Positions 12,385 to 30,872 of a stretch of DNA of 53,460 nt are shown piece after piece. Both the position numbers and the translations under genes were made by a program. Under the pieces are notes generated by a model. That model did no database searches and had not been told where the DNA came from. It was given only the letters and a program-made list of their open reading frames with translations. The DNA lies in the NCBI GenBank assembly GCA_028532855.1, contig JAQQAL010000034.1, positions 1 to 53,460 on the forward strand, written 5' to 3'. Numbering within the stretch: the first letter of the stretch is position 1; each line of letters begins with the position of its first letter. The DNA comes from Candidatus Thalassospirochaeta sargassi (GTDB lineage Bacteria > Spirochaetota > Spirochaetia > UBA9216).

Positions 12385-12403
12385 GTTTTCCTCCTAAAAT
12401 AAT

Positions 12404-12425: not shown

Positions 12426-12428
12426 ACC

Positions 12429-13662: not shown

Positions 13663-13691
13663 TTGACTGCATTGACTAAATCCCCTATAGT
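13663..13691 (+). promoter_or_regulatory. Promoter of the DeoR-BtpA-M29-FGGY operon
   Basis: TTGACT (13663-13668), 17 bp, TATAGT (13686-13691). Transcription would begin near 13698, which rules out the in-frame TTG at 13663 as the DeoR start codon. A second TTGACT copy lies at 13672-13677. Confidence 0.7.
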
Positions 13692-13740
13692 GAGTTCTAA
13701 CATTTTTTATGTTCGTATAAACATACAACCGGGGTTTTGG

Positions 13741-14538
13741 ATGGGCATATCGAATAAAAGAAAGCTCCATATAAGAGAATCGATTAAAAACAGCGGAACT
13801 GTCAGTGTTGCAGATCTTGCTCAGGAGCTCTCTGTTTCGGAAATGACAATAAGACGAGATCTTTCAGAAATGGAAAATGAGGGTTTTCTTAAAAGGACTC
13901 ACGGGGGTGCAGTCCGGGAGGTGAGCCGCAGTTATGAACCGCCCTTTTCGGCCAGACAGGAAATAAACAAAGAAGCAAAAACCCTGATAGCAGAGAAGGC
14001 TGTGTCTTACCTTGAGGAAGGAGACACGATTGCGGTAGATTCAGGGACTACAGCACTTGAGTTCGCGCGCCTGTTGAATCGTTTCAGATCTCTTACCATA
14101 GTAACGCCCAGCATCCACATAGCATCCATGTTTTTAACAAATCCCGGCATAGAAACAATACTCGCCGGTGGAATAGTAAGAAAAAATGAGGGCTCAATGG
14201 TTGGGGAGATTACCCGCAAAACCTTCGAAAACCTATATTTTGACAAATTTTTCCTGTCCACTGCAGCTTTGAGTGCGGAGGCTGGTTATACCGAGTACAT
14301 TTCTGAAGATGCGGAAATTAAACGCCTGATAATTTCCCATTCAAAGAAAACTATTGCACTTATGGATTCGACAAAACTTGGCCGAACAGCCTTTTCGCGC
14401 GTTTGCGGCATAGAAGATACAGAAATACTGATTACGGATTCAAAACCGGACAACGGTTTAATCAGAGATCTAACGGATAATAATGTAATTTTAGACATAA
14501 ATAGAACACAAGGAGATAAAAATGAGTTGGTTAAATGA
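13741..14538 (+). CDS. DeoR-family transcriptional regulator
   Basis: The frame is open from 13663, but the promoter occupies that region, so I place the start at the ATG at 13741 (MGISNKRKLHIRES), giving 265 residues, typical for the family. The N-terminal DeoR helix-turn-helix is SVADLAQELSVSEMTIRRDLSEMENEGFLKRTHGGAV. The C-terminal effector domain has DSGTTALEFARLL, LAGGIVRKNEGSMVG and the FLSTAALSAEAGYTE segment that binds a phosphorylated sugar in this family. It leads the BtpA-M29-kinase operon and overlaps the next gene by 17 bp, so it probably represses its own operon until a sugar phosphate accumulates. Confidence 0.9.
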   Translation: MGISNKRKLHIRESIKNSGTVSVADLAQELSVSEMTIRRDLSEMENEGFLKRTHGGAVREVSRSYEPPFSARQEINKEAKTLIAEKAVSYLEEGDTIAVDSGTTALEFARLLNRFRSLTIVTPSIHIASMFLTNPGIETILAGGIVRKNEGSMVGEITRKTFENLYFDKFFLSTAALSAEAGYTEYISEDAEIKRLIISHSKKTIALMDSTKLGRTAFSRVCGIEDTEILITDSKPDNGLIRDLTDNNVILDINRTQGDKNELVK

Positions 14539-15325
14539 TGTTTTCAGCGTAAAGAAACCTGTAATAGCAATGTGTCACCTTCAGGCATTGCCCGGTGATC
14601 CCGGTTGGGACAGAGAGAAGGGAATGGACTGGGTTATTGATAAGGCCAGATTTGACCTAAAAGCCCTTCAGAACGGCGGGGTAGACGGTGTAATGTTTTC
14701 CAATGAATTCAGCCTTCCCTATCTTACAGAAGTTGAACCTGTTACCTACACCGCAATGGCCAGAATAATCGGGGAACTTAAAAGCGAGATAACTGTACCT
14801 TACGGGGTAAACGTTCTGTGGGACCCGAAGGCGTCCATTGATCTGGCTGTCGCCGTCGACGGCTTATTTGTACGTGAAATTTTTTCCGGAGTTTATGCAA
14901 GCGATTTTGGTCTCTGGAACACTAACTGCGGCGAGGTAATACGTCACCAGCATAAAATTGGGGGACAGGATGTAAAACTGCTGTTCAATATTGTGCCTGA
15001 AGCCGCACAGTACCTCGGCACACGGGACGTTGCCGATATTGCACGCTCAACTGTATTCAACCACCTGCCGGACGCAATCTGCGTTTCAGGTCTCACAGCA
15101 GGCGCAGAAACCGATGCATCAACACTTAAAAAAGTAAAAGATGCTATTCCCGATACTCCAGTTTTCGCTAATACCGGAGTTCGCCTATCAAACGTTGAAG
15201 AACAGCTGTCAATTGCCGACGGAACCGTTACGGCCACAACCTTCAAGCGCGATGGCGAATTCTTTAATGAGGTAGATGAAAAACGGGTAAAAGAATTCAT
15301 GGACAAGGTCAGAAGTCTTAGATAA
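14522..15325 (+). CDS. BtpA/SgcQ-family TIM-barrel protein
   Basis: This 267-residue protein belongs to the BtpA family (Synechocystis photosystem I biogenesis factor BtpA, E. coli SgcQ). Family marks are PVIAMCHLQALPGDPGW near the N-terminus, NGGVDGVMFSNEFSLPY, VPYGVNVLWDP, FVREIFSGVYASDFG, and the C-terminal VFANTGVRLSNVEEQLSIADG that resembles a phosphate-binding loop. AAGGAG precedes the ATG, which lies inside the end of the DeoR gene. The biochemical role is unsettled in the family. Here, between a DeoR regulator and a sugar kinase, a sugar or nucleoside-like substrate is more likely than a photosynthetic role. Confidence 0.88.
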   Translation: MSWLNDVFSVKKPVIAMCHLQALPGDPGWDREKGMDWVIDKARFDLKALQNGGVDGVMFSNEFSLPYLTEVEPVTYTAMARIIGELKSEITVPYGVNVLWDPKASIDLAVAVDGLFVREIFSGVYASDFGLWNTNCGEVIRHQHKIGGQDVKLLFNIVPEAAQYLGTRDVADIARSTVFNHLPDAICVSGLTAGAETDASTLKKVKDAIPDTPVFANTGVRLSNVEEQLSIADGTVTATTFKRDGEFFNEVDEKRVKEFMDKVRSLR

Positions 15326-15347
15326 AACAGAAAGCGGGGGGCTGTAA

Positions 15348-16415
15348 ATGGACAAAAGATGGAAAAAGCTCGGCGAAATACTCGTAAACTATTCAACAAG
15401 GGTACAGCGCGGCGAAAAGGTAATGATAGCCATGATCGAACCGGAAACCTGGCCGCTTGCACATGCCGTCTACGAGGCGGTGGTGAAAGCAGGCGGATAC
15501 CCCCAGATTCAGTTAAAATCCGAAACCCTCAGACGCTGTTTTCTTGAATATGGAACGGCCGAACAGATATCCTGGGTGCCGGAAATTGAAATGTACGGTA
15601 TGGAATGGGCCGATGTCTATATCGGTCTGCGCGGAGCACACAACCTCTTTGAGCTGCAGGATATTCCAGCAGATAAGCTCGCATCAAACCAGAATGCAAT
15701 GGGTGTTGTATCTACCGCCCGCTGGGAGAAAACCCGCTGGTGTCTGATTCGCGTACCGAATGAATCGTTTGCACAGCAGGCAGAAACTTCGTATGAATCA
15801 CTGCTTGATATGTTTTTTAATTCATGCTTCATCGACTGGAAGACCGAACTCCCAAAATGGGAAAAATGGTGCCGCAGACTTGAGAACAGCAGAAACGTAC
15901 GGATAACCGGCAAGAATACGGACCTGAGCTTCTCAATCGAGGGACGTAAATGGATGTCTTTTGCGGGTACAAACAACTTCCCCGACGGAGAGATTGCCAC
16001 AGCGCCAATTACTTCAACAATTAACGGCACAATATGGTTTGAAAACCCGGGAGTTCTCGGCGGACGGCTGATGAATGATCTAAGGCTTACATGGAAAGAT
16101 GGAGTGCTCACTGAGGCAAGCTCTTCAACCGAACAGGAGTTTTTAACCTCTATTGTTTCCAAAGACGCAGGCTCCTCTCTCATAGGAGAGTTTGCAATCG
16201 GTACAAACTTTTCGATAGACCGCTTCTGCAACGACATCCTGCTTGACGAAAAAATAGGCGGAACCATTCACATTGCCCTGGGCAGGGCATACCCGGAATG
16301 CGGAGGCTTAAACAAATCGGCCATCCACTGGGATATTGTAAAGGACATAAGACGTGAAGGGGCAGTTTATGTCGATGATAAAGTGATAGTAGAAGGCGGA
16401 AAAATCTACCTTTAA
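15348..16415 (+). CDS. M29-family aminopeptidase-like metalloenzyme
   Basis: This 355-residue protein matches thermophilic M29 metallopeptidases (AmpS/aminopeptidase T). Likely metal ligands can be seen in order: Glu in NNFPDGEIATAP, Glu in SLIGEFAIGTN, His in GGTIHIALGRAYPECGG, and His and Asp in SAIHWDIVKD. It starts after a GGGGGG-rich ribosome site and follows the BtpA gene by 22 bp, so it is co-transcribed with two sugar genes. Peptide cleavage makes little sense here. The E. coli sgc operon likewise contains a peptidase-like protein (SgcX, family M42). A hydrolytic step on a sugar conjugate is inferred. Confidence 0.88.
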   Translation: MDKRWKKLGEILVNYSTRVQRGEKVMIAMIEPETWPLAHAVYEAVVKAGGYPQIQLKSETLRRCFLEYGTAEQISWVPEIEMYGMEWADVYIGLRGAHNLFELQDIPADKLASNQNAMGVVSTARWEKTRWCLIRVPNESFAQQAETSYESLLDMFFNSCFIDWKTELPKWEKWCRRLENSRNVRITGKNTDLSFSIEGRKWMSFAGTNNFPDGEIATAPITSTINGTIWFENPGVLGGRLMNDLRLTWKDGVLTEASSSTEQEFLTSIVSKDAGSSLIGEFAIGTNFSIDRFCNDILLDEKIGGTIHIALGRAYPECGGLNKSAIHWDIVKDIRREGAVYVDDKVIVEGGKIYL

Positions 16416-16438
16416 CAGAGCTTTTAAATGGAGGCGGT

Positions 16439-17926
16439 ATGACTGATTGTTTTCTTGGAATTGATATTGGCACGGGCTCGTCAAAGGGAGTTATAACCGA
16501 TATCTCAGGCAAAATTCTTGCTGAGGCACAGGTTCCGCATGATATGGAGATGCCCGCACCCGGGCAGTATGAGCAGGATGCTGATGAGATATGGTGGGGA
16601 GACTTCGTTAGACTCTGCAGACAGCTATGCGATTTGCTCAGCCGTAATCATGGCCTGAGAACTGAAAATATTAAGGCCGTCGGAATAAGCACAATAGCTC
16701 CATGTGTTCTCCCCGTCGACAGCAAAGGCCGTCCGCTGCGCAAGGGTATAATGTATGGTATAGATACAAGGGCAGTCGATGAAATTACAGAAATTGAAGA
16801 GCTTGTGGGAAAAGATGAAATTTTCAGACTGACGGGGCTGACTCTATCCTCGCAGGCATGTGTTCCGAAAATGCGCTGGCTCCAGAAACATGAACCGGAG
16901 GTATGGGACCGTACAGCAAAAATTCTGACAGCAGCCGGCTACATTGTCTACAAACTGACAGGTCGCTTCACAGTTGATATTTACAACGCCATCGGATACG
17001 CACCACTCTTTGATATCCGCAAAAAATGCTGGGACAGCAATCACTCAGCAGACCTTAATATAAACATGAAACTTCTGCCCGAACTGCTGTGGAGCAGCGA
17101 TGTTGCCGGAACAGTCACTGCTGAAGCCGCGGAGCTCACAGGACTGTCCATCGGCACAGCGATCATCACAGGAACTGCGGATGCAGTATCAGAGGCTGTC
17201 GGGGCCGGTGTATGCATGAACGGTGACATGATGATGATGTACGGCAGCAGTAATTTTTTCATCATGCGAACCGAAAACCTGACCCCGCTGAGCTCATTCT
17301 GGTCCTCGAACTTTATTGATCCCGGAACGTCTGTCATTACCGGAGGAATGTCTACTGTAGGCAGTATGTTCAAATGGTTCAGTGAAACCTTCCCCGGTCG
17401 TTCACTTCCGGAATGGGAAAACCTTGCGGCGGCTGCAGCGCCCGGGGCGGGCGGCATTACAATCCTGCCGTATTTCGCGGGAGAGCGCACGCCCATAAAC
17501 GCCCCTGACGCAAAGGGAGTAATCTTCGGCCTCAGTCTACAATCCTCCCCCGGCGACATATTCCGTGCCTTGCAGGAATCTGTAGGCTACGGAATAAAAC
17601 ACAATATTGAAGAAATGAGACGGCAGGGAACCGGGGCCCGGCGCATCATCGCTATCGGCGGCGCGTCTGGAAGCAGACAGCTGATGCAGGTAATCAGCGA
17701 CATCACAGGAGTCAGCCAGTTTATTCCAGATATCGGCCTCGGTGCCTGCTACGGAGATGCTTTTCTTGCTGCTGTAGGTACAGGACATTTCAATAGCTCT
17801 GCAGAAGCAGGCAAATGGGTTGGGGTTGCTGATGAGATAGTACCCGATAAAGATCTTTTTGGATTTTATGAAGAGGGGTATAAAAAATACCGGGCACTCT
17901 ATGAGAGCACCCGGCACCTATTTTAG
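16439..17926 (+). CDS. FGGY-family carbohydrate kinase (xylulokinase-like)
   Basis: This ATP-dependent sugar kinase has 495 residues. The N-terminal motif is GIDIGTGSSKGVITD, and KAVGISTIAPCVLPVD follows. The xylulokinase-type ITGTADAVSEAVGAG and YFAGERTPINAPDAKGVIFGL come next, and the C-terminal lobe has IIAIGGASGSRQLMQVISDITG. GGAGG precedes the ATG. It is last in the DeoR-led operon and would phosphorylate the pathway's sugar after import. The ABC transporter encoded convergently is a possible supplier. The last codons contain a hairpin that also serves as terminator. The substrate is unknown. Confidence 0.9.
   Translation: MTDCFLGIDIGTGSSKGVITDISGKILAEAQVPHDMEMPAPGQYEQDADEIWWGDFVRLCRQLCDLLSRNHGLRTENIKAVGISTIAPCVLPVDSKGRPLRKGIMYGIDTRAVDEITEIEELVGKDEIFRLTGLTLSSQACVPKMRWLQKHEPEVWDRTAKILTAAGYIVYKLTGRFTVDIYNAIGYAPLFDIRKKCWDSNHSADLNINMKLLPELLWSSDVAGTVTAEAAELTGLSIGTAIITGTADAVSEAVGAGVCMNGDMMMMYGSSNFFIMRTENLTPLSSFWSSNFIDPGTSVITGGMSTVGSMFKWFSETFPGRSLPEWENLAAAAAPGAGGITILPYFAGERTPINAPDAKGVIFGLSLQSSPGDIFRALQESVGYGIKHNIEEMRRQGTGARRIIAIGGASGSRQLMQVISDITGVSQFIPDIGLGACYGDAFLAAVGTGHFNSSAEAGKWVGVADEIVPDKDLFGFYEEGYKKYRALYESTRHLF
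17882..17922. terminator. Bidirectional terminator inside the 3' end of the FGGY kinase gene
   Basis: CCGGGCACTCT-ATG-AGAGCACCCGG (17890-17914) folds into an 11-position stem with two internal mismatches. On the minus strand it is followed by TATTTTTT (17882-17889), a good terminator for the DhaK/DhaL/cupin operon. On the plus strand the weaker ACCTATTTT follows. The convergent genes are only 27 bp apart, so the signal is embedded in kinase codons. Confidence 0.65.
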
Positions 17927-17953: not shown

Positions 17954-18460
17954 CTAAAGCTCAACCTCATAATAGAAGCCGAACTCCTCTTTCAATTCAT
18001 AGGCGAAAAAATCTACATCCGGAGTATTTTCATAAAACGCAACGAATGTATTAGCCGTATCAGCCTGCGTAAGCGGAGCATGATGCCAAACCCCGGGGTT
18101 CAGAATAACAGCAGACCCCTTCTTTACCGGAAAGGCTTTTACCGAATTGAAATCGGGCCTCTGAGGATCATCAACCTCCGGTAGAGCTACTACAATGAAG
18201 ATATCTTCCGTCGGCAGCAGGGCCTCCCCGGTAGTCTTATGACATTCGAAAGTCTCCTCGACGAGGCCGTTCCTACCATAGGTCTGAACAATGGAGAATG
18301 ACGTATTACCTGCGTGAACCATTACACCAAGCTTATTCCAGAACTTCAATTCTTCAACATCGGCATCAGGTGCACGAAGTTCCTCGGAAATAATCGTTCC
18401 GTAGGTCCCGAAGTTCTTTTTAGTTAATTCTGTCAATTTTAAAACGCGTTTTTCCACCAC
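17954..18460 (-). CDS. Ureidoglycolate lyase (AllA)-like cupin protein
   Basis: This small cupin (168 residues) resembles ureidoglycolate lyase/hydrolase: NFGTYGTII near the start, FECHKTTGEALLPTEDIFIVVAL with the conserved His and Glu, and AVILNPGVWHHAPLT with the paired His. The start is a GTG (18458-18460) followed by a second in-frame GTG, just after AGGAG. No other allantoin or purine genes are present. It is the last gene of an operon with DhaL, DhaK and a sugar transporter, so it probably acts on a sugar or keto-acid derivative instead. An isomerase or lyase role is a guess. Confidence 0.85.
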   Translation of the reverse strand: MVEKRVLKLTELTKKNFGTYGTIISEELRAPDADVEELKFWNKLGVMVHAGNTSFSIVQTYGRNGLVEETFECHKTTGEALLPTEDIFIVVALPEVDDPQRPDFNSVKAFPVKKGSAVILNPGVWHHAPLTQADTANTFVAFYENTPDVDFFAYELKEEFGFYYEVEL

Positions 18461-18466
18461 AATCTC

Positions 18467-19102
18467 CTAAGCAGCAACAAAATCTGCAAATGTGCCGATA
18501 AGGATTGCTCCCATTGTAGCACCCGGATCCATTATATCTGCAGACTTCTCCTGGTAGTAGGCCGCCCTGCCATGCTGAGCAACCATGCCCACTGTGGCAT
18601 CACGACCTTCTTCAGCGGCCTTCTTCGCTTTTACGGCAGCCACGGATAGATCTTCGCCCGCGGCAGCTGCTGCCTCCAAGGCTTCAGCTGCAGGGTGGAG
18701 AGAATCAATTATCGTTTTTTCACCGGGCTTAGATTTTCCACGGTCCATTATACCGCCGACAAAGGCCTGCCAGAAAGAAGCAGCTTCTGCTGTACCCATT
18801 TCAGTACAGCCTTTTAATGCCTTGCCTCCGCGCATAAAACCGGTTGCCATGAGTGTCCCCATTGTTGACGGGGCAGCCTTTGACATAGCCATACCGCCCT
18901 TCATCAGCATTGAACCGAGGTCATCCTCAGTCCAGCCTGCTGCAAATTCGTCAACAGCTGCAAAAACAGCAGCCATTGTAAGACCCAGATCACCGTCACC
19001 CATCTTACTGTCCAAATCAATAAGATAATCTTTTTTCTCGACGGCAACAGAGTTCATTTTCGACAGAAAAGCCTTTACATCACTTACTGATAGTTTGTTC
19101 AT
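18467..19102 (-). CDS. dhaL: Dihydroxyacetone kinase-like subunit DhaL (nucleotide-binding)
   Basis: This DAK2-domain protein (211 residues from the ATG at 19100-19102) has GGAGG six bases upstream. A longer frame starts 63 bp earlier but lacks support. The magnesium-nucleotide site is intact as DLDSKMGDGDLGLTM, with all three Asp residues. KPGEKTIIDSLHPA and GRAAYYQEKSADIMDPGATMG match DhaL. In E. coli DhaL carries ADP that is rephosphorylated by the PTS protein DhaM. No dhaM is seen here, so it either uses ATP directly or relies on a DhaM elsewhere. It lies 16 bp after dhaK. Confidence 0.93.
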   Translation of the reverse strand: MNKLSVSDVKAFLSKMNSVAVEKKDYLIDLDSKMGDGDLGLTMAAVFAAVDEFAAGWTEDDLGSMLMKGGMAMSKAAPSTMGTLMATGFMRGGKALKGCTEMGTAEAASFWQAFVGGIMDRGKSKPGEKTIIDSLHPAAEALEAAAAAGEDLSVAAVKAKKAAEEGRDATVGMVAQHGRAAYYQEKSADIMDPGATMGAILIGTFADFVAA

Positions 19103-19118
19103 TCCGTCCCTCCGATGA

Positions 19119-20123
19119 TTAAAGCTGAACCTGCTCGAAGAATGGGGTATATGCCGGCTTGGCAAGATACTTTTTCAATTCATCATCAAGCTTCAGCAAA
19201 GAGATTGATGCCCCGGCCATTTCCATTGATGTTGCGTATTCACCTGCATAGACATGAAAAACGGAAATGCCCTTCTCTTTAAGCATCATATTAACCTTTC
19301 GATACATAACATAGAGCTCCTCTTTCGGAGTTGCTCCAAGACCGTTCATAAGTACAGCTACTTCATCTCCACTTTCATACGGTAGGTCTTCAAGTATAGC
19401 GTTCAGCATTGTTTCTACAACATCATCAGCGGGCTTAAGCGGTCCCTTTTCGATACCCGGCTCTCCATGTATACCCATGCCGATTTCCATTTCACCCTCT
19501 TCTATTGTAAATGACGGCTTACCGACTTCAGGAACAATACAGGGACTGAGGGCTACGCCCATAGTTCTGACATTTGCACAGACCTTTTCTGCAACTGCCT
19601 TAACCTCTTCAAGAGTTTTCATGTCATCGGCTGCAGCACCCGCAATCTTGTATACAAAAAAGATACCGGCGACACCGCGGCGTTTGTGTTCTTCACCCTT
19701 CTTTGATGAAGCAACGTCTTCGCCCGCCACTACCTGAAGGACCTTGATGTCTTCCATTTCGGCCATTTCCGCCGCCATGTCGAAGTTCATGATATCGCCG
19801 CCGTAATTACCATAGATGTAAAGTACTCCGGCACCCTTGTCTATATCCTTTGTAACCTCAAGCATCTGTTCGGCTGACGGCGACTGAAAAACGCCTCCGA
19901 CTGAACAGCCGTCAAGCATGCCGTCACCGACGTAGCCGAGGAAAAGCGGAAGGTGCCCCGAGCCGCCACCGGTTGCAATACCAACCTTACCGTCTTTACC
20001 TGTAGCGGTACATACACAGCGAAGATCATCATTGACATATTTAAGTTTTTCAGGATGTGCGGCCATGATTCCTTCGATCATTTCATCAACAAAATTCTCC
20101 GGTTTATTCAAGAATTTTTTCAT
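19119..20123 (-). CDS. dhaK: Dihydroxyacetone kinase-like subunit DhaK (substrate-binding)
   Basis: This DAK1-domain protein has 334 residues. The covalent substrate-binding His is present in MGIHGEPG. The catalytic pair equivalent to E. coli His56 and Asp109 is kept, in GGGSGH (His57) and NYGGDIMNF (Asp110). The residues next to His57 are changed: E. coli has GHEPMH, this protein GHLPLF (56-61). This suggests a pocket for something other than dihydroxyacetone, perhaps a tetrulose. GAGGAG precedes the ATG, and the gene follows the second permease gene by 16 bp. The kinase step is therefore tied to one importer. Confidence 0.93.
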   Translation of the reverse strand: MKKFLNKPENFVDEMIEGIMAAHPEKLKYVNDDLRCVCTATGKDGKVGIATGGGSGHLPLFLGYVGDGMLDGCSVGGVFQSPSAEQMLEVTKDIDKGAGVLYIYGNYGGDIMNFDMAAEMAEMEDIKVLQVVAGEDVASSKKGEEHKRRGVAGIFFVYKIAGAAADDMKTLEEVKAVAEKVCANVRTMGVALSPCIVPEVGKPSFTIEEGEMEIGMGIHGEPGIEKGPLKPADDVVETMLNAILEDLPYESGDEVAVLMNGLGATPKEELYVMYRKVNMMLKEKGISVFHVYAGEYATSMEMAGASISLLKLDDELKKYLAKPAYTPFFEQVQL

Positions 20124-20139
20124 TTTATACTCCTCACTT

Positions 20140-21159
20140 TCAGTCTGCAGCCTGTCCGGCAGCCTTTAATTTATTCATTTCCATTACGCGTTTTCGCTCA
20201 TTATATTTGTGCAGCAGGTAATTGATTACCATAATCGCAAGCAGTGCGAATCCCCAGATGAACTTCTTGAAAAACGGACTGAACGACATAATGTTAAGTC
20301 CGCTCTGCGTAATCTGCAGGATTATGATACCCATTACCAGCCCTTTAACTGTACCGAAACCGCCATCCGGATCAGTTCCGCCAAGTACAGCTACTAGAAT
20401 AGCCTGAAGCAGGTAGGCTGTTCCGTAACCGGGCCGCATTGAGTTTGCTCTTGATATCATTATCAGTGAAGCCAGGCCTGCAAGAACTGCCGTGAGTATG
20501 TAGGTGTTGATAAGAACCTTTGTGTTATTAACACCTGAAAACTTAGCAACAGTAGGGTTTGATCCCACCATGTACATATTAAACCCCTGCCTTGTCCGGT
20601 TCAGCAACACGCTGACAAGCAAGGCTATTAATACAAATATTATGAACGGAACAGGTATTCCAAGCACTGTACCGCTTCCAAGAGCCATAAACGACTCAGG
20701 AAAGCCGCTTACGCTGTGTCCCTGTGTGATAACAATTGCAAGCCCCAGAAACAACCCCTGTGTACCAAGGGTTGCAAGAATCGGAGGAACCCCGATACCT
20801 GCTATCAGCAGTCCGTTAACCAGACCGCATACTATAGACACAGCAATTACTGCAAGTACCGCCAGAAGGATTGCAACACCGGCAGGAGTCGAAGACTCAA
20901 TCGAATCAGCCAGAATCAGTGCTGCGATAACGCCTGTGAAGTTTGAAACTGAAACTACAGACAAATCAATACCGCCGGTAATCATCGCCATCATCATCGC
21001 GAGTGCAAGCAGTCCGAATTCCGGGAACTGCGATGCCATTGACTGCAGATTTATACCGGTAAGGAATTTACTCGGCATAGCTATCGACAGAATGATGAAA
21101 ATCACCATCATAATTATAAAAAGGGTAAAGTTCTTAGAACTTTTCAACTTTATCTTCAC
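20140..21159 (-). CDS. Rbs-type sugar ABC transporter permease
   Basis: This BPD_transp_2 (RbsC-like) membrane protein has 339 residues and about nine hydrophobic segments. Family features include MITGGIDLSVVSVSNFTGV, GVPPILATLGTQGLFLGLAIVITQG and AILVAVLGGTDPDGGFGTVKGLVMG. The start is GTG (21157-21159) with GGGAGAGG upstream. It pairs with the permease encoded 12 bp upstream, so the channel is probably a heterodimer. It precedes dhaK. Confidence 0.92.
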   Translation of the reverse strand: MKIKLKSSKNFTLFIIMMVIFIILSIAMPSKFLTGINLQSMASQFPEFGLLALAMMMAMITGGIDLSVVSVSNFTGVIAALILADSIESSTPAGVAILLAVLAVIAVSIVCGLVNGLLIAGIGVPPILATLGTQGLFLGLAIVITQGHSVSGFPESFMALGSGTVLGIPVPFIIFVLIALLVSVLLNRTRQGFNMYMVGSNPTVAKFSGVNNTKVLINTYILTAVLAGLASLIMISRANSMRPGYGTAYLLQAILVAVLGGTDPDGGFGTVKGLVMGIIILQITQSGLNIMSFSPFFKKFIWGFALLAIMVINYLLHKYNERKRVMEMNKLKAAGQAAD

Positions 21160-21171
21160 TTCGCCTCTCCC

Positions 21172-22176
21172 TTAAGCTGCCCGCAGGCCTTTTCTCTCGT
21201 TTATCTTATTCTGTGCATAGGTAATTGTGACACCGAGAATGATAATGACGCCTATGAAGAACTGCTGCCAGTATGACGACAGCCCGATAAGAACAAGGTT
21301 TTTCTCAAGTATCGTAATCAAAGCCACACCGATCAGTGTTCCGGTGATAGTACCGGTACCTCCGCTTATTCTCGTTCCGCCGAGCACTACCGCAGCAATT
21401 ACACTGAGCTCGCTTCCTACTATATAATTAGGATTTGAGTACCTTATCAGGGACAGATGCATCACACCCATAACCCCGGCCAGAAGGCCCGCGTACATAT
21501 ACGTAAAAAACTGGATTTTTCTTATATTGTATCCGCATCGCTTTGCAGCTTCCCTGTTCCCGCCTATCGCATAGATACCGCGCCCTATCATTGTATATTT
21601 CAGCAGGAACCAGGTTAAAACTACAATTATCACAAGGATCAGAAAGAAAACCGAAAGTCCGTACTGTGTTCCGTCAGGACGGGTAAAGGTGAGAATATTC
21701 ATCTTACCAAAAACCTTAATACTGTCCGGTATATTACCGACATTAATGGCCTTGGTTCCAAACCACTCCAGCAACGCGCCGTGAAAAAGTGAACTTGTAC
21801 CAAGGGTTGTAATCAGGGTCGGCAGATTGAAAATCGAGATAAATACTGCATTGATTGCGCCGAGAGCCAGGCCGACTCCAATTGAAATCAGGAAAGCCAC
21901 TGCAATGTTATCGACACCGCTTGCTATCAGAACATTGATAGCAATATACTGACCACAGATTGCAATAGCAGTACAGGAAACATCAATTCCACCTGAAAGC
22001 AGAACCACAAAAATACCTATTGCAAGCACTGCTGTACCCGAACTGCTTCGCAGAAGGTCAAACATATTTTCCCAGGTCATGAAGACAGGGTTAATTGTTG
22101 TGATTACAATTGAAAATACTATTACTATCAGCAGAAGATAGGTTTCATTCTTTTTGAACAATGATTTCAGATTCAT
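21172..22176 (-). CDS. Rbs-type sugar ABC transporter permease
   Basis: This RbsC-like membrane protein has 334 residues. Diagnostic segments are VVLLSGGIDVSCTAIAICGQY, NLPTLITTLGTSSLFHG and AAVVLGGTRISGGTGTITGTLIG. Its ATG overlaps the stop of the ATPase gene by ATGA (22173-22176), so the two are translationally coupled. It forms the channel with the neighbouring permease. Confidence 0.92.
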   Translation of the reverse strand: MNLKSLFKKNETYLLLIVIVFSIVITTINPVFMTWENMFDLLRSSSGTAVLAIGIFVVLLSGGIDVSCTAIAICGQYIAINVLIASGVDNIAVAFLISIGVGLALGAINAVFISIFNLPTLITTLGTSSLFHGALLEWFGTKAINVGNIPDSIKVFGKMNILTFTRPDGTQYGLSVFFLILVIIVVLTWFLLKYTMIGRGIYAIGGNREAAKRCGYNIRKIQFFTYMYAGLLAGVMGVMHLSLIRYSNPNYIVGSELSVIAAVVLGGTRISGGTGTITGTLIGVALITILEKNLVLIGLSSYWQQFFIGVIIILGVTITYAQNKINERKGLRAA

Positions 22177-23699
22177 GCTCCTGCCTCCTCCTCATAAGAT
22201 CTTGTTACAATATCGAACAGCTCATCAGCTGTGGTTGTTGTTGAATCCTCAACCTCTTTAATTATCCTGCCGTTCGACATAAGCAGTACGCGGTTACAGT
22301 TGTCAAGAATCTCCTGAATCTCATCGGATATCATGATGATTCCCATACCCTTTTCTGCAAGATCGCGTATTATTTCATGTATGGTATGTTTCGAACCGAT
22401 ATCAATTCCAATTGTGGGTCCGTCAAGGATAAAAACATCAGGCTCAGTTGCAAGCCATTTAGCAAGAACAACACGCTGCTGATTTCCACCTGAAAGGCTG
22501 TTAACAGGGTTATCACCGGTCGGAGTCTTAATAGACAGCTTTTCAATCCAGTTATCACCCGCTTTCTTCCGCTTAAACTGACTCAATAATCCGAGTTTCA
22601 CAAGTAGAGATTTAAGAATCGTGATTACGATATTATCGCCTATGGACTGTTCCTCAAACAGACCCTGCCCATGACGCTCTTCAGGAAGCAGGGCAATTCC
22701 ATTATTAATAGCATCTTCCGGCTTTTTAATATCAACAGCCTTGCCATGCATTTTTATCGTCCCGCTGTCAGGCTTATTCAAACCGAAAAGAGCCTGAGCA
22801 ACCTCGGTTCTTCCCGAACCAATCAATCCGGTGATACCAAGAATCTCACCCTTCTGCAGGTTGAAATTTATATCATGAAACTGACGCTCCTTGTTCAGTC
22901 CTTCAACCGAAAGAAGAGGAGTTTCTTCCGCTAATTTTTTATTATAAATGTATGGAGCATATTCCAGTTCCCGTCCCGTCATAAGATAAACAAGCTTATC
23001 GTTATCCAATTCTGAGGTAGGATAAACACCAATCTGTTTTCCATCTTTTAGAATTGTAATATTCTCAGAGATTTCAAATACCTCGCTAAGCTTGTGACTG
23101 ACGAAAAGGATAGAAATACCCCTTTCTTTCAACTTCATTATTATAGAAAAAAGATGATCAACTTCCTCTTTCGTTATTGCAGATGTTGCCTCATCCATTA
23201 TGATTAATTTCGCGTTCTGGGTGAGAGCACGTGAGATGGCGATAATCTGCTTTTTTGCCATAGAAAGGTTTTCAACCCTTTCATTCAAATCAATTTCTTC
23301 GCCTATTTCATCCAGAGCTTTTCTGGCAGACTCCTGGATAGTTTTCCAATTAACTGTTTGCTGGTTGCTTTCCAGCATCTGATTTATAGAAATGTTCTCG
23401 GCTACGGTGAGATTAGGAAACAATGACAGATCCTGATAGATAATCTGAACACCCGCACGAATTGTTTCAATAGTCTGCATACCGTGTTCATGAAGTTCCC
23501 TGCCTTCAATCTTTACACTTCCGCTGTCAGCCCTGTATACACCGCCGATTACTTTAATGAGGGTGGATTTTCCTGAACCATTTTCACCTATGAGGCAATG
23601 GATTTCACCCTTCCCTATTGTAAGATCAACATTGTCCAGAGCTTTTACTCCGACAAACGTCTTGCTTACTCCCTTAGCTTCTAGAAATACTTCAGCCAT
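22173..23699 (-). CDS. Rbs-type sugar ABC transporter ATP-binding protein (two ATPase domains)
   Basis: This is a duplicated ATPase (508 residues from MAEVFLEAKG at 23699, with GGAG four bases upstream). A longer reading frame begins 87 bp earlier but would start inside the terminator-like region. Domain 1 has Walker A GENGSGKST and Walker B KLIIMDEATSAIT. Domain 2 has a degenerate P-loop GLIGSGRTE, the signature LSGGNQQRV and FILDGPTIGIDIG. In this family one site is typically catalytically weak. It powers the importer whose binding protein is encoded just upstream. Confidence 0.93.
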   Translation of the reverse strand: MAEVFLEAKGVSKTFVGVKALDNVDLTIGKGEIHCLIGENGSGKSTLIKVIGGVYRADSGSVKIEGRELHEHGMQTIETIRAGVQIIYQDLSLFPNLTVAENISINQMLESNQQTVNWKTIQESARKALDEIGEEIDLNERVENLSMAKKQIIAISRALTQNAKLIIMDEATSAITKEEVDHLFSIIMKLKERGISILFVSHKLSEVFEISENITILKDGKQIGVYPTSELDNDKLVYLMTGRELEYAPYIYNKKLAEETPLLSVEGLNKERQFHDINFNLQKGEILGITGLIGSGRTEVAQALFGLNKPDSGTIKMHGKAVDIKKPEDAINNGIALLPEERHGQGLFEEQSIGDNIVITILKSLLVKLGLLSQFKRKKAGDNWIEKLSIKTPTGDNPVNSLSGGNQQRVVLAKWLATEPDVFILDGPTIGIDIGSKHTIHEIIRDLAEKGMGIIMISDEIQEILDNCNRVLLMSNGRIIKEVEDSTTTTADELFDIVTRSYEEEAGA

Positions 23700-23743
23700 T
23701 TTGTCTCCTGTAAAAATGGTAGTGTCATAACCATTATTTGGGT

Positions 23744-23776
23744 AAAAAAAAGAAGGAAGGCCTAAGCCCTCCCTCC
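23744..23776 (-). terminator. Intercistronic terminator-like hairpin after the binding-protein gene
   Basis: On the minus strand GGAGGGAGGG-6 nt-CCTTCCTTCT pairs over 10 positions (three G-U) and is followed by eight T residues. It lies between the binding-protein stop and the ATPase start within one operon, so it should terminate only part of the transcripts and lower expression of the downstream genes. Confidence 0.75.
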
Positions 23777-23792
23777 GAAAACTCAAGATTGA

Positions 23793-24833
23793 TTAAAGTT
23801 TGTAGTTACCGTCAGCGTCTTTCCAGTCGTCGAGGTTGTCTTTATTAACGTCAACCCATGCCTGTCCATAGATAACCTTGTTGCCATGCTCGTTTTCTTT
23901 AATGATGATATCTTCATATCCGGGAGCGCCCATGTCTGTTCCGTCTACAATTTCTTCACCCTTAAGTAGTTTGTATGCAGCCATTGCTGTAACATAGCCG
24001 GCATCGGCAGGTCTCCAGAAGTGAATTGACTGAGCAGCGCCTGACTCGAGGTAGTCGCCTGCTACAGAAGGCAGACATGTACCGAAAGCAGCAACCTTTC
24101 CAATAAGGCCTTTTTCTTCCACTGCAGCTGCAGCACCGGGAACAGTACTCATTGCTGAACCCATAATAGCCTTGAGTTCGGGGTATGTTTTGAGAAGCTC
24201 AAGAGATTTCTCATATGCCATCTGCTGATTTTCCTGATCTTCAACTCTGTCAGTAGCCATCGTGAGGTTGGGATATTTTTCTGCAACCTGTGCAACTTCA
24301 CCGTCAACCCACTGGTTATGAGTAGGAGATGTGAGGTGGCCGACAAACGGCTGCCATACGCCTTCTTCACCCATCCATTCTGCCATTACATCAGCCATGT
24401 GGCGTCCATATGCTTCATTGTCGAATGCTTCAACATCAAAGCTGATCTGCTTCTGGTTGGAAGCTTCGTGTGTGAAAGTAAGGATACCTGCATCATTAGC
24501 TTTCTTGAAAGCTGGTACAAGTGATTCAGGGTCATTGGGTACAACCAGAATTGCATCAACACCCTTCGCAATAAGGTCATTTACGAGTGCTACCTGTGCA
24601 GCCGGGTCGGCTGTATCAGCACCAATCTGGTAACAGTTCACGTCAGGATACTCTTCATTGAACCTCTCAATTCCAAGTCTCATATCATCAAACCATGCTA
24701 CACCTTCAAGTTTAACAACCATTACGATTTCAAGCTGGTCATCACCAGCTGCAGAGCTTTCCTGCTGTCCGCCTGCAAAAGCAAAACCGCCGATTACGAT
24801 TAATGCCAGAAGCATTGCTACGATCTTTTTCAC
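23793..24833 (-). CDS. Rbs-type sugar ABC transporter substrate-binding protein
   Basis: This exported family-4 (RbsB-like) binding protein has 346 residues from the GTG at 24831-24833, which has AGGAGG at a 6-base spacing. The longer frame to 24920 is excluded because it runs through the promoter. The signal peptide is VKKIVAMLLALIVIGGFAFA, followed by GGQQES; there is no lipobox Cys. The mature protein shows LVNDLIAKGVDAILVVPNDPESLVPAFKKANDAG, the hinge and ligand-binding pattern of pentose/hexose/autoinducer binders. It is first in the operon ending with DhaK, DhaL and the AllA-like cupin. The ligand is unknown and need not be ribose. Confidence 0.93.
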   Translation of the reverse strand: MKKIVAMLLALIVIGGFAFAGGQQESSAAGDDQLEIVMVVKLEGVAWFDDMRLGIERFNEEYPDVNCYQIGADTADPAAQVALVNDLIAKGVDAILVVPNDPESLVPAFKKANDAGILTFTHEASNQKQISFDVEAFDNEAYGRHMADVMAEWMGEEGVWQPFVGHLTSPTHNQWVDGEVAQVAEKYPNLTMATDRVEDQENQQMAYEKSLELLKTYPELKAIMGSAMSTVPGAAAAVEEKGLIGKVAAFGTCLPSVAGDYLESGAAQSIHFWRPADAGYVTAMAAYKLLKGEEIVDGTDMGAPGYEDIIIKENEHGNKVIYGQAWVDVNKDNLDDWKDADGNYKL

Positions 24834-24891: not shown

Positions 24892-24920
24892 ATCTTAACT
24901 TCACACGTTGCTGTTGTCAA
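24892..24920 (-). promoter_or_regulatory. Promoter of the ABC-DhaKL-cupin operon; contents of the 317-bp gap 24834-25150
   Basis: On the minus strand TTGACA (24915-24920), 17 bp, TAAGAT (24892-24897). The rest of the gap to the LacI start is AT-rich. It contains a 13-bp palindrome CTAAAT-C-ATTTAG at 24930-24942, upstream of this -35 box, and a TATCGATA core at about 25064-25071 that could serve lacI autoregulation. No clear promoter for lacI and no small gene were seen there. Confidence 0.75.
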
Positions 24921-25150: not shown

Positions 25151-26179
25151 ATGAAGACAACAATAAAAGATATTGCAGACAAAGCGGGTGTTTCAACAGC
25201 AGCCGTCTCACTTTCAATTAACAATAAGCCGGGAGTAAGCAATGATACCAGAGAAAGAGTTATCGAAGTTGCACACGAACTCGGCTATGAACCTCTTTCC
25301 AAATTTGTTTCGCCTGACGCGGATATAATAATCCGGTTCCTGAAAATATCCAGACATGGACATACCATCAACAAAAACCACAATTATTTTATTGATGCCT
25401 ATGTAGAGGGGATAAGCGCGACCGCATCAGTAAGCGGAGCTACTGTTGAGGTAGAAGCCTATTCAGCCGATGAACCACTTGAGAACATCATAAACAAGAT
25501 CACCGACTCTCCACAGCTTACCGGATGCCTGATTCTGGGAACCGAACTCAGTGAAAAAGATATAAAGGCTTTTGTCGCAACCGGAAAGAACATTGTTTTC
25601 GTAGATACCTATCTTGATTATATCTCAGCTGATTTTGTCGATATGAATAATACTGACGCAGTCTACAAACTGGTTAATCACCTCATCGGCCGCGGTCATA
25701 AAGAAATAGGAATGATAAAAAGCAGTGTAAACACCCGTAATTTTCAACTTAGAGAAAAAGCCTTCTACCAGGTTATGGAAAGCCTCGGGCTCGAAATAAA
25801 TAAAGATTTTATAATAGATGTTGATTCCACATTTGATGAGGCATACAGCGGGTTTAAAGAATTCCTATCCGGAAATCCCCAGCTCCCGACAGCTTTTTTT
25901 GCTATTAACGACATTATAGCAATGGGCTGTATGCGGGCACTTCAGGATAAAGGTTATACTGTTCCGGATGAAGTATCCATTGCCGCCTTCGACAATCTTC
26001 CGATGTCCGAGATGGTCTCCCCGCCGCTTACAACCATAGATGTTTCAAAACGAGAGATAGGCCGGACAGCCCTAGACATGCTCCTTCATAAAGCATCAAG
26101 AGAGATAAGCCCGCCGCCTAGAAAAACAATGATCGGCGGCAGACTGATTAAGCGAGAGAGTGTTAAAAAAATCCGTTAA
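25151..26179 (+). CDS. LacI-family transcriptional regulator
   Basis: This 342-residue regulator has a typical N-terminal LacI DNA-binding domain, TIKDIADKAGVSTAAVSLSINNKPGVSNDTRERV. The periplasmic-binding-protein-like effector domain follows, with GCLILGTELSEKDIKAF, HLIGRGHKEIGMIKSS and IAAFDNLPMSEMVSPPLTTIDV. AGGAA precedes the ATG. It is divergent from the ABC-DhaKL operon and most likely represses it. The other neighbour, the arabinose-type transporter, converges on it with no spacer. The effector is unknown. Confidence 0.92.
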   Translation: MKTTIKDIADKAGVSTAAVSLSINNKPGVSNDTRERVIEVAHELGYEPLSKFVSPDADIIIRFLKISRHGHTINKNHNYFIDAYVEGISATASVSGATVEVEAYSADEPLENIINKITDSPQLTGCLILGTELSEKDIKAFVATGKNIVFVDTYLDYISADFVDMNNTDAVYKLVNHLIGRGHKEIGMIKSSVNTRNFQLREKAFYQVMESLGLEINKDFIIDVDSTFDEAYSGFKEFLSGNPQLPTAFFAINDIIAMGCMRALQDKGYTVPDEVSIAAFDNLPMSEMVSPPLTTIDVSKREIGRTALDMLLHKASREISPPPRKTMIGGRLIKRESVKKIR

Positions 26180-27142
26180 TCATTTAATTATCAGAACTGC
26201 ATCTCTATCAGTATTGGCAACGACAATTACAAGAAAAACAAGACCACGTATCAACTGCTGAACATTAGGGTTTATTTGCAGCATAACAAGACCGTTGTTC
26301 AATATTGCAAAAAGCAATACACCCACAAGAACGCTGCTGAATCTGTTCTTTGCACCGCCGGAAACCGGCATCCCGCCAAGAACAAGGGATATCATAATGT
26401 TTGTTTCTAATAATGTTCCTGATGATGCTGTTATTGAACCGACCCTGATTGTATTTATAGTAGCGGCGAATCCGGTTAGAATTCCAGCGAGCATAAAAAC
26501 TAAAAACTTGATCTTTGCGACTTTTACGCCGGAAAATCTGGCGGCTGTTTCTCCGGCGCCAATAGCTTTCAACTTCCTGCCGAACGATGTCATGCTAAAA
26601 AAGAACGCACCTAATACAAGAACAAGAACAGCTGCTGAAATCAGATAATACCACTTATTAAATGAATACATGAATATCGGGGCAGACATCGGCTTTGCAG
26701 TTGTCAAAAAAGCACACACACCTCTAAAAATAAACATCGTACAAATAGTGACAATAAATGATCCGATTTTAAACTTCACATGCAAAATACCGTTTATAGC
26801 CCCAATAAAAAGACCGACAAACATACCGGAAATAACAGCAAGGAGGAAGTTATACTGTGCAAAATAGGCAACAGCTATTGAAGCAACTCCGATTATCGAA
26901 CCTTGTGAAAAATCCAGACCTCCCATTGTCATTATAAAAAATACACCGGTTGCACAAATAAACAATACACAAGATTGTTCGATAATCAGTCTGATATTTC
27001 TAAAAGTTAACGATCTGAAATCTGTTAGAATTCCAAACAGCAGCACAACGACCACAATGCCTATATACGGCAGCAGCCTCTGGAAAACCTGCATTTTTTG
27101 AGAGGAATTATTTCCCTCGGATATTTTTAAAGACTTTTCCAT
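26180..27142 (-). CDS. Rbs-type sugar ABC transporter permease (arabinose-linked system)
   Basis: This RbsC-like permease has 320 residues. Family segments are IMTMGGLDFSQGSIIGVASIAV, KIGSFIVTICTMFIFRGVCAFL and MISLVLGGMPVSGGAKNRFSSVLVG. It is the last gene of the GH4-transporter operon and lies 12 bp after the ATPase gene. It and the permease encoded before the ATPase would form the channel. Its stop codon abuts the stop of the convergent LacI gene, and no terminator is evident between them. Confidence 0.92.
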   Translation of the reverse strand: MEKSLKISEGNNSSQKMQVFQRLLPYIGIVVVVLLFGILTDFRSLTFRNIRLIIEQSCVLFICATGVFFIMTMGGLDFSQGSIIGVASIAVAYFAQYNFLLAVISGMFVGLFIGAINGILHVKFKIGSFIVTICTMFIFRGVCAFLTTAKPMSAPIFMYSFNKWYYLISAAVLVLVLGAFFFSMTSFGRKLKAIGAGETAARFSGVKVAKIKFLVFMLAGILTGFAATINTIRVGSITASSGTLLETNIMISLVLGGMPVSGGAKNRFSSVLVGVLLFAILNNGLVMLQINPNVQQLIRGLVFLVIVVANTDRDAVLIIK

Positions 27143-27154
27143 TTCTTCCCTCTA

Positions 27155-28681
27155 TTATATCATCGCGTGAATTAAATCATGTTCAGCCAATTCTTCATTT
27201 CTCAGAAATTCCCGACTGATTTTACCGTTTTTCAATATTAGGATGCGATCACACATTCCTATAAGTTCCAGTATTTCCTCTGAGATCATAATAATTGTCT
27301 TTCCTCTTTTTCGAAGTTCATCCATCAAAGAATAAATATCTGCCTTAACCTTAATATCTATCCCTCGTGTAGGACTATCAAGGATCAGAATGTCTGAATC
27401 TTTTCCAAGCCATCTGGCAAGCACAACTTTCTGCTTATTACCACCCGACAACCCTGAAACAAACTGGTTAACATTTTGCATTTTAACGCTCATCTGTTCA
27501 GAAAATTTCTTTGCGAACTCATTTTCTTTTCTTTTTGAAACAACAATTCTGTTTCTCAGATGTTCCAGCGACAAAAGACAAATATTATCTTTAATACTTG
27601 AATTTAATATTACGGATTCGTTATCCCGATCCTTCGACGTATAGGCAATATTATTTTTAATAGCTTCAGGAATGGAATTTATTTTATTACCGTTTGCAAT
27701 AAATACTTCCCCAGAAGCGTCATAGGCAGCGCCAAAAAGAGCTTTAGCAAGGTCATGCATTCCGCAATCGCTCAAGCCGCCGATGCCCAGAATCTCACCC
27801 TTGCACACCTCAAGATCAATATTAAAGATTTTATCTTTTACAGATAAATCTCTGGTTTTGAGTACCACTTCCTCGTTTATCGATTCTCCGTAGTCGGTTC
27901 GATAATATTTCTTATCGATCTCTCTTCCTACCATCAACAGCTTTAAATCATCTTCGCTGCTTTCAGAAGAAATTACCGTGTCGACATAAACTCCATCCCG
28001 AAAAACCGAAATTCTATCGGTCATTTCCAAAACCTCTTCCAGATCATGAGAGATAAAAACAACTGTATTACCTTCTTCTTTTATCTTTTTAATCTGTTTA
28101 TAGAGAATATCACGCCCATCCTGCGATAATGCTGTAGTTGTTTCATCAACAACTACTATTTTAGGATCAAAATGCGTAGCTTTAACTATTTCAACCAGTT
28201 TTCGTGTCTCATAATCATAATTGTCAATCATAGTGGCGGCATTAATAAAATCAAACCCATAACGGTTCAATATCTTATTTACAGTATCATTTAGCTTTTT
28301 CTGACTCAGGATACCGTATTTTGTAAACTCATCTTCTTTTCCAAGAAAGATATTCTGAGCTACCGTCAATCCGTTTAAAGTTCCCAGTTCCTGAACTATT
28401 ATTGAAACTCCTTTTTCGTTTGCTTCCACCTGCGTGTGTGCCTCATATTCATTCTCATCAAGATAGAATGTTCCGCTGTCTTTTCTATAGACTCCGCACA
28501 GCATTGACGCAAATGTTGATTTTCCGGATCCGTTTTCCCCTATCAATCCATGGATTTCTCCTTTTGATAGAGAAAAACTGATATCTTTACAGGCCTTTGT
28601 AACCCCAAAGGACTTACATATATTAGCAGCTCTTAGCACTTCGTTGTTATCCGTCATGACATTTTCCTTGCTTGTACTCAT
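27155..28681 (-). CDS. Rbs-type sugar ABC transporter ATP-binding protein (arabinose-linked system)
   Basis: This double-domain ATPase has 508 residues. Domain 1 carries GENGSGKSTFASMLCGVYRKDSG and a Walker B reading KIVVVDETTTALS, with Glu after the Asp. Domain 2 carries GIGGLSDCGMHDLAKALFG, SGLSGGNKQKVVLARWL and LILDSPTRGIDI. The second P-loop is degenerate, as usual. The first ATG overlaps the permease stop by ATGA (28678-28681); MTDNN, eight codons later, is an alternative start. It energises the importer encoded with the GH4 enzyme. Confidence 0.92.
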   Translation of the reverse strand: MSTSKENVMTDNNEVLRAANICKSFGVTKACKDISFSLSKGEIHGLIGENGSGKSTFASMLCGVYRKDSGTFYLDENEYEAHTQVEANEKGVSIIVQELGTLNGLTVAQNIFLGKEDEFTKYGILSQKKLNDTVNKILNRYGFDFINAATMIDNYDYETRKLVEIVKATHFDPKIVVVDETTTALSQDGRDILYKQIKKIKEEGNTVVFISHDLEEVLEMTDRISVFRDGVYVDTVISSESSEDDLKLLMVGREIDKKYYRTDYGESINEEVVLKTRDLSVKDKIFNIDLEVCKGEILGIGGLSDCGMHDLAKALFGAAYDASGEVFIANGNKINSIPEAIKNNIAYTSKDRDNESVILNSSIKDNICLLSLEHLRNRIVVSKRKENEFAKKFSEQMSVKMQNVNQFVSGLSGGNKQKVVLARWLGKDSDILILDSPTRGIDIKVKADIYSLMDELRKRGKTIIMISEEILELIGMCDRILILKNGKISREFLRNEELAEHDLIHAMI

Positions 28682-29634
28682 TTAACCACCGTGCCTTTTT
28701 TCACTCTGGTTGTTAAGAGGACAATACCTAACAACGTACATCCTGTTACAACGTTCTGAATAGTTGTGGGAACCCCCAGCGAAATCAGGCCGTTCAGTAT
28801 CATTGCGATGATAAATTCTCCTATTAACATTGAGATTACCGGATTTATATTCTTTTTAAATGCAAGACCGAAAAAACATCCCATAATCGGGGTAAAGTTT
28901 CTTGCCATACTGGCCATGTTAGTGCTTGAAGTAATTGCGTTACCGTAGCTTATAGTCAGAATACTCATAACTCCTGCAAAAAAACCGCAAAGAACAAAGG
29001 CAATAATCTTATATCTATTAATATTAATTCCCATGTTTTTTGCGACTGCCTCATTACTGCCTATCGCATTAGTATATGTACCTATTTTTGTATGCTTTAA
29101 AAATAAATGCGTTAAAAAGAAGGCTATAAATGCAAGAATAATATTCCATGGCGCTACTCCAAAAGCATTAACATTTTCTCCAAGCGTTAGTACATTTCCT
29201 GATGCAATTAAGGCTCCTATACATTCATATATTATCATCAACCCGATGGTTACAATAATTGATGGAATTCTCAATCTCACATACAGAAATCCGTTTATCA
29301 GGCCGATCACCGTGCCGACAAAGACTGCACCTATAATAAGCCCCCAATATCCAAAATGCCGACTCAACAAAACTCCAATTATTGCAGACAGAACAATGTT
29401 TGAACCGATACTGAAATCAAAAAGTCCCATAACAATGATAAAATAAAAACCGCAAGCAGCTACAGTAGGAAGTAGTGCCTGCTGGAAATAGGAAAAAATA
29501 TTACTAAGACTACCAAAATTATGAGGCCGCAGCACCTTAAAAAATAAATAAATTAGAATAGTAACTCCAAGCAACAACCATATTCCCCTTATCGATAATG
29601 AGGAAGTTCTCTTTTTCACCGAACTATCTACCAT
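28678..29634 (-). CDS. Rbs-type sugar ABC transporter permease (arabinose-linked system)
   Basis: This RbsC-like membrane protein has 318 residues. It shows IIVMGLFDFSIGSNIVLSAIIG, RLRIPSIIVTIGLMIIYECIGALIA and GINVNRYK-type segments after the conserved TYTNAIGSNEAVAKNMG loop that contacts the ATPase. It is separated from the binding-protein gene by a hairpin and is coupled to the ATPase gene by a 4-bp overlap. Confidence 0.91.
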   Translation of the reverse strand: MVDSSVKKRTSSLSIRGIWLLLGVTILIYLFFKVLRPHNFGSLSNIFSYFQQALLPTVAACGFYFIIVMGLFDFSIGSNIVLSAIIGVLLSRHFGYWGLIIGAVFVGTVIGLINGFLYVRLRIPSIIVTIGLMIIYECIGALIASGNVLTLGENVNAFGVAPWNIILAFIAFFLTHLFLKHTKIGTYTNAIGSNEAVAKNMGININRYKIIAFVLCGFFAGVMSILTISYGNAITSSTNMASMARNFTPIMGCFFGLAFKKNINPVISMLIGEFIIAMILNGLISLGVPTTIQNVVTGCTLLGIVLLTTRVKKGTVVK

Positions 29635-29660
29635 AATATATTACAAATCCTTATTAATAA

Positions 29661-29689: not shown

Positions 29690-29710
29690 GCTGTTAGATA
29701 ATTATAAACC

Positions 29711-30847: not shown

Positions 30848-30872
30848 TTTCCTGCTCCTTTAAAATTTTGTT

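Follow-up and report, generated by a model that had tools for sequence, protein, structure and literature searches.

In a 53,460-nucleotide stretch of the Candidatus Thalassospirochaeta sargassi genome (contig JAQQAL010000034.1; hereafter the window), seven minus-strand genes at positions 17954-24833 encode a sugar-binding protein, an ATP-binding cassette (ABC) ATPase, two permeases, the dihydroxyacetone kinase subunits DhaK and DhaL, and an AllA-like cupin. What is new here is the coupling of a DhaKL subfamily with an importer of the D-ribulose-receptor type and with a metallocupin; the component families were already known. Our favored explanation, held tentatively at close to even chances, is that the operon imports a small ring-forming ketose of the ketopentose class, either D-ribulose itself or a near relative that differs from it in one hydroxyl, which would be phosphorylated by a re-tuned DhaKL independent of the phosphotransferase system (PTS). 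The operon and its conserved arrangement are real, and probably mis-named by standard annotation.

Operon organization

The source genome (3.8 Mb, rated 100% complete, with the window on contig 34) has its close relatives within Spirochaetia. The binding protein gene (23793-24833, GTG start) matched PF13407 Peripla_BP_4 with an E-value of 2.8e-56. It is followed by a CUT2-type ATPase (22173-23699) with two ABC_tran domains, recognized as two stretches by PF00005 (E 4.4e-58), and by the CUT2 permeases B (21172-22176; PF02653, E 6.5e-34) and A (20140-21159; PF02653, E 1.7e-30). Next come DhaK (19119-20123; PF02733 Dak1, E 1.9e-124), placed in a clade designated 'GHLP' by its pocket residues and by the tree, and DhaL, the nucleotide-binding subunit (18467-19102; PF02734 Dak2, E 1.5e-37, and alignment to E. 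coli DhaL). The cupin is the last gene (17954-18460; PF04115 Ureidogly_lyase, 47.8 bits with the cut-off at 23). These boundaries agree with those of an earlier, sequence-only reading of the window.

Neighboring genes either overlap by 4 bp or have 6-16 bp between them; the one exception is a 93 bp gap between the binding protein and the ATPase. From this tight spacing, the seven genes form one operon. The sequence-only reading had described an importer fused in one operon with DhaK, DhaL and the cupin; the single operon and the dedicated importer were both borne out, but the proteins are not fused, and DhaK and DhaL are separate genes rather than a single chain.

Predicted ligand of the binding protein

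A PDB search retrieved 5BRA (4.1e-71), 9I1M (2.5e-56) and 3D02 as the closest solved relatives of the binding protein, and the next family, LsrB, followed with an E-value about 30 orders of magnitude weaker. The 9I1M structure is AauA, the D-ribulose receptor of enterohemorrhagic E. coli (EHEC), to which the binding protein is 38% identical. AauA binds D-ribulose with a Kd of 2 µM, more than 200-fold better than L-arabinose, and contacts it through K37, W43, E118, H167, E196 and S223 (PMC12307932). The corresponding residues here are K41, W47, E123, H172, E201 and M228, so that five of the six contacts are kept; the position of S223 is a methionine in 5BRA as well. The K, W, E and H were invariant in all 47 rows of DhaK-linked binding proteins (a table in which two loci are present twice under different ids), with Glu or Asp at position 196 and Met, Gly or Ser at position 223. 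LsrB controls had K, F, D and Q at the ligand positions.

These residues suggest that the ligand is a furanose-forming sugar of the ketose class, differing from D-ribulose near the hydroxyl that the authors of PMC12307932 call C5. The earlier proposal of a keto-sugar, such as a tetrulose, thus appears largely right in kind, but a ketopentose fits the binding protein better; tetrulose is less favored because it is unable to close into the furanose ring bound by AauA.

The same binding protein family and a CUT2 importer occur in the D-ribulose ABC systems Aau of EHEC and Rbl of Citrobacter rodentium (PMC12307932), which also share a ribulokinase-like FGGY kinase, found here in the wider locus. 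Unlike these systems, the window operon has DhaK, DhaL and the cupin, and Ser223 is replaced by Met. The Rbl operon itself holds the FGGY kinase together with a KpsF-type isomerase, unlike the operon described here.

A distinct DhaK clade without DhaM

The catalytic residues H57, D110 and H219 are kept in the window DhaK, corresponding to E. coli H56, D109 and H218, the last of which forms a covalent hemiaminal with the substrate carbonyl. In contrast, E57, T79 and K104 of E. coli are replaced by L58, Q80 and G105. The pattern holds across the clade (E. coli numbering): all 85 sampled rows keep the three catalytic residues and have Leu at 57 and Gly at 104, and T79 is mostly Gln, whereas the DhaM-linked DhaKs examined keep E57, T79 and K104. 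In the tree, the clade is split from DhaM-linked DhaKs with a Shimodaira-Hasegawa-like approximate likelihood ratio support of 95-99, the E. coli and plasmid outgroups being on long branches. DhaL keeps the acidic LDxxxGDGD motif. Both proteins narrowly missed the NCBIfam equivalog cut-offs (DhaK, 396 vs 406.25; DhaL, 123.7 vs 138.3). Together, the DhaK pocket substitutions and the AauA-like pocket of the binding protein support a substrate other than dihydroxyacetone, as the sequence-only reading had proposed.

The same reading had pointed to the lack of DhaM, and this extends to the whole genome: no match to the EIIA-man domain (PF03610), with which DhaM starts, was found anywhere in the 3.8 Mb, in a search that gave matches in five control genomes. 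Enzyme I (five matches) and HPr (three above the cut-off) are present, therefore the absence of DhaM is not simply a loss of the PTS. Likewise, no EIIA-man was found in eight of nine tested relatives carrying this operon type. The ninth (G156) does have the domain, at a distance of about 2 kb from another DhaK that is 45% identical, and away from the clade member. DhaM occurred at only one of the 78 usable loci described below, in Clostridium peptidivorans (L125), where a clade DhaK adjoins a canonical DhaK and DhaM comes after the latter. The window operon thus resembles the PTS-dependent DhaKLM systems of E. coli and L. lactis in its separate DhaK and DhaL and in its catalytic residues. It differs in having no DhaM in the genome, in the three pocket replacements, in its separate clade and in its dedicated ABC importer.

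In one clade member (L114), DhaK and DhaL are naturally fused into a protein of 575 residues. This is the layout of ATP-dependent enzymes and, together with the absence of DhaM, was counted as indirect support for ATP as the donor.

A second DhaK/DhaL pair was found on contig 11 of the same genome (L040:8415-13423); it likewise lacks DhaM and is adjoined by a tripartite ATP-independent periplasmic (TRAP) transporter and a PCC-domain protein.

The cupin as a candidate metalloenzyme

The AlphaFold (AF2) model of the cupin was confident, with a predicted local distance difference test score (pLDDT) of 92.6. A fold search with this model found AllA structures at Z 18-19 and a DUF4867 structure at Z 14.7; further matches, at Z of about 10 and under, were generic cupins and were not used. 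Four residues, E72, H74, E79 and H126, are invariant among the aligned cupins and match the 2Glu-2His metal site in the alignment with the DUF4867 structure 9gyy (motif from PMC11968277). AllA ureidoglycolate lyase (PF04115) shares the cupin fold and the E-x-H and H residues of the metal site, but it is only about 21% identical and has Gln at the position of E79. The cupin scored 31.8 bits at best with AllA equivalog and subfamily models, whose cut-offs are at least 160. No allantoin genes lie nearby, and the best allantoinase match in the genome reached 262.8 against a cut-off of 357.85, with only family proteins below the cut-off. A role in the allantoin pathway was therefore rejected, in agreement with the sequence-only reading.

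DUF4867 cupins (SftX/SqvD) of sulfoglycolysis share the 2Glu-2His motif and a gene association with ketoses and FGGY kinases, and the study that describes them proposes that they act in ketose metabolism as mutarotases or in ring opening (PMC11968277). The window cupin scores below the Pfam cut-off for DUF4867 (24.8 vs 28.7 bits) and belongs to a different pathway, and the biochemical function of DUF4867 is itself only proposed. With regard to the isomerization or lyase step suggested earlier, the DUF4867-like motif makes a metallocupin of the ring-opening or mutarotase type a better explanation than a lyase.

Gene order is suggestive in the same direction, although not proof. The cupin lies directly upstream of DhaK in three loci (L076, L083, L105), and in four others (L072, L075, L088, L092) this slot is taken by RbsD/FucU, a known mutarotase family. 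An importer that binds the ring form and a kinase that needs an open-chain carbonyl would give such an enzyme its purpose.

The genome encodes a second AllA-like protein on contig 32 (24% identity), in another transporter locus (L041) without DhaKL.

Distribution of the arrangement

Genome contigs were searched with an alignment of the clade DhaK, which gave at least 568 relatives. The best 80 were kept, resulting in 78 usable loci; as these are the best matches to one query, the fractions given here are not unbiased. An importer stood beside DhaK in 41 of the 78 loci, when two or more nearby CUT2 importer genes with an identity of no less than 35% were required, and in 43 by a looser criterion. 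The ABC-importer form is the commonest partner type in this sample. A cupin was found within six genes of DhaK in 10 of the 78 loci, from Spirochaetota, Chloroflexota and Bacillota, and one further cupin, beside the second FGGY kinase in L051, lay outside the count by open reading frame labels and was recovered by translation.

The arrangement noted in the sequence-only reading is thus present, but it is not peculiar to the window: ABC-DhaKL loci were found in Spirochaetota, Pseudomonadota, Bacillota and Chloroflexota. On rhizobial and roseobacter plasmids the order is LacI, permease, binding protein, ATPase, permease, DhaK and DhaL, often with an added aldo/keto reductase or FGGY pentulose kinase. 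Other clade members stand with TctABC, with GRP-type permeases, with PTS genes plus a class II aldolase, or with microcompartment shell genes. Since these partners vary, the clade is probably a general small-ketone or ketose kinase. No description of this ABC-DhaKL system was found in the open-access papers searched, most subscription papers being outside that search.

In Bacillota, clade DhaK and DhaL occur in or beside microcompartment genes (EutN/CcmL, PduL, Fe-ADH), some with a class II aldolase nearby (L072, L075, L088, L089, L092-L095, L098, L106). A published classification of microcompartment loci (PMC4207490) covers those with a class II aldolase, but DhaK is not mentioned in its main text. 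A mobilizable E. coli IncN plasmid (NZ_CP027125.1; L037:4814-11947) carries PTS IIA, IIB and IIC, a BglG-type regulator, a class II aldolase, a clade DhaK, DhaL and an HPr-like gene. DhaK matches of this kind recur on many enterobacterial plasmids.

The wider locus and neighboring genes

The operon belongs to a conserved locus of greater extent (13663-17926 and 1915-4106), which the sequence-only reading, correct on the seven genes, had left out. Convergent with the operon on the plus strand is an XylB-like FGGY kinase (16439-17926; TIGR01312, 299.8 bits, below the cut-off), whose position is conserved in L044-L046 and L060-L063. Before it on the same strand, and also supported by synteny, are a DeoR-family regulator of uncertain start (13663-14538; PF00455/PF08220), a BtpA-family protein (14522-15325; PF03437, E 3.7e-94) and an M29 aminopeptidase-family protein (15348-16415; PF02073, E 3.1e-58). 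Two minus-strand genes adjoin this locus in relatives: a second FGGY kinase (1915-3456), ribulokinase- or pentulose-kinase-like by its best PDB matches (3gg4/3l0q, and the ribulokinase 3qdk), and a ribulose-phosphate 3-epimerase (Rpe)-family protein (3453-4106; PF00834, E 4.4e-48; adjoining in L044-L046). Three relatives, one of the same genus (L044) and two of other families (L045, L046), keep the order second FGGY kinase, Rpe, DeoR, BtpA, M29, first FGGY kinase, the convergent cupin-DhaL-DhaK-importer genes, and LacI.

In the window, the second FGGY kinase and Rpe are parted from the rest by a cellobiose-phosphorylase/GH9/CUT1 block (4184-13562), which holds a glycoside hydrolase family 94 (GH94) cellobiose-phosphorylase-family protein, CUT1 permeases, GH9 and a ROK-type regulator. 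As relatives have the second FGGY kinase and Rpe close to DeoR, this block looks like an insertion. At 4184-5365 is an aminotransferase that scores best with the C-terminal domain of PdxR/MocR and has no DNA-binding domain by Pfam.

The BtpA-family protein is an orthologue of E. coli SgcQ, with 68.9% BLASTP identity over 267 amino acids, covering its full length. The sgc operon, whose substrate is unknown (PMC13343008), also shares with the locus an Rpe-type epimerase, a DeoR regulator and a metallopeptidase-family protein. The window DeoR and Rpe are related to SgcR (27%) and SgcE (24%) only at the level of the family, and BLAST gave no match between the M29 protein and SgcX. The window differs from sgc in having an ABC importer where sgc has a PTS, and in its DhaKL, cupin and FGGY kinases.

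Divergent from the operon is a LacI-family regulator (25151-26179, plus strand; PF00356/PF13377), a conserved neighbor by synteny. Upstream of the binding protein gene is a sigma-70-like promoter (24892-24920, minus strand; TTGACA-17-TAAGAT), matching 10 of 12 consensus positions and scoring best of 17 such sites, a number no higher than chance. A consensus scan also found a terminator-like hairpin in the gap between binding protein and ATPase (23751-23776, minus strand; 11-pair stem with T tail), a possible attenuator.

Beside the operon, the stretch 26180-38577 holds a second CUT2 importer (26180-30847), GH4 (30873-32273), AraA (33524-35050), a class II aldolase (35075-35776) and an FGGY kinase (36988-38577). 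It looks like an L-arabinose utilization locus.

Proposed pathway and alternative explanations

The arrangement probably feeds small keto-sugars into metabolism. From the observed gene content, synteny, absence of DhaM and residue patterns and from the predicted cupin fold, we infer a substrate, phosphate donor, cupin activity and product as follows. The binding protein would capture the furanose form through K41, W47, E123 and H172 and pass the sugar to the CUT2 importer. The metallocupin would then open the ring or interconvert its anomers, and DhaK may bind the freed carbonyl covalently via H219, in a pocket where E57, T79 and K104 have become Leu, Gln and Gly. DhaL would transfer phosphate from ATP. 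The resulting phosphoketose would enter pentose-phosphate or triose metabolism, with help from the FGGY kinases and the Rpe-type epimerase conserved alongside; the conserved pentulose-type kinase and Rpe were counted in favor of this pathway. The generalization to a widespread DhaK/DhaL subfamily re-tuned to ketopentose-class sugars, holding the carbonyl on a histidine, using ATP instead of DhaM and served by a dedicated AllA/DUF4867-type ring-opening metallocupin, is possible but on the doubtful side.

Several points weigh against this pathway. The pocket argument takes K104 and T79 to touch dihydroxyacetone in the E. coli DhaK structure; a literature search gave no paper stating the DhaK contact residues. 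With Met in place of S223, the sixth AauA contact, the ligand may be a sugar other than D-ribulose. No single substrate can account for the whole clade, given its association with TctABC, PTS, GRP-type permeases and microcompartments. Mutarotase activity was assayed by the DUF4867 authors, and none was detected (PMC11968277). The FGGY kinases of the same locus could phosphorylate the sugar, leaving another job to DhaKL. Finally, the scheme of a ketopentose kinase is built on genes and residues, from which its substrate and activity are inferred.

The conserved FGGY kinases lead to the strongest alternative, a division of labor in which an FGGY kinase phosphorylates the imported ketose and DhaKL phosphorylates dihydroxyacetone, or a similar small ketone, that a retro-aldol or lyase reaction has set free from the sugar. 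The co-conservation of the ribulokinase-like second FGGY kinase and Rpe in the spirochete locus agrees with it, as does the class II aldolase beside clade DhaK in PTS-type loci (L037, L112, L133, L134, L139) and at the edge of microcompartment loci (L089, L095). We nevertheless consider it rather unlikely: minimal clusters (L053, L076, L083, L105) consist of importer, DhaKL and cupin, with no FGGY kinase or aldolase among the recognized neighbors, and a substrate that is still dihydroxyacetone would not readily account for the changed DhaK pocket of the clade.

Plain uptake of dihydroxyacetone or a tetrulose (erythrulose) with an ATP-dependent DhaKL agrees with DhaK and DhaL being clear family members with intact catalytic residues. 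A relevant precedent is LerK, presumably a DAK-family enzyme. This L-erythrulose 1-kinase is known in tetritol catabolism (PMC10733421). However, neither sugar forms an AauA-type furanose ring, yet the four residues holding the C2-C4 hydroxyls and the ring are invariant, and the canonical E57, T79 and K104 of DhaK are replaced, which makes this explanation quite improbable.

An importer of autoinducer-2, or of a compound like 4,5-dihydroxy-2,3-pentanedione (DPD), was rejected as highly improbable: the binding protein does score with TIGR02637 RhaS (141 bits) and LsrB (95 bits), but both scores are far below the cut-offs, LsrB has F, D and Q where this protein has W, E and H, and no LsrK/LsrF/LsrG-type set was seen in the locus.

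Significance

Standard annotation names such genes 'dihydroxyacetone kinase' and 'ureidoglycolate lyase'. If the import and phosphorylation of a ketopentose-class sugar by DhaKL is true, many genomes would carry a mis-named ketose kinase pathway, the window DhaK having at least 568 relatives. It would also provide a functional setting for AllA/DUF4867-type cupins, whose mutarotase role is only proposed, and for SgcQ. The BtpA-family protein of this spirochete may be of use in assigning a function to the sgc operon of E. coli.

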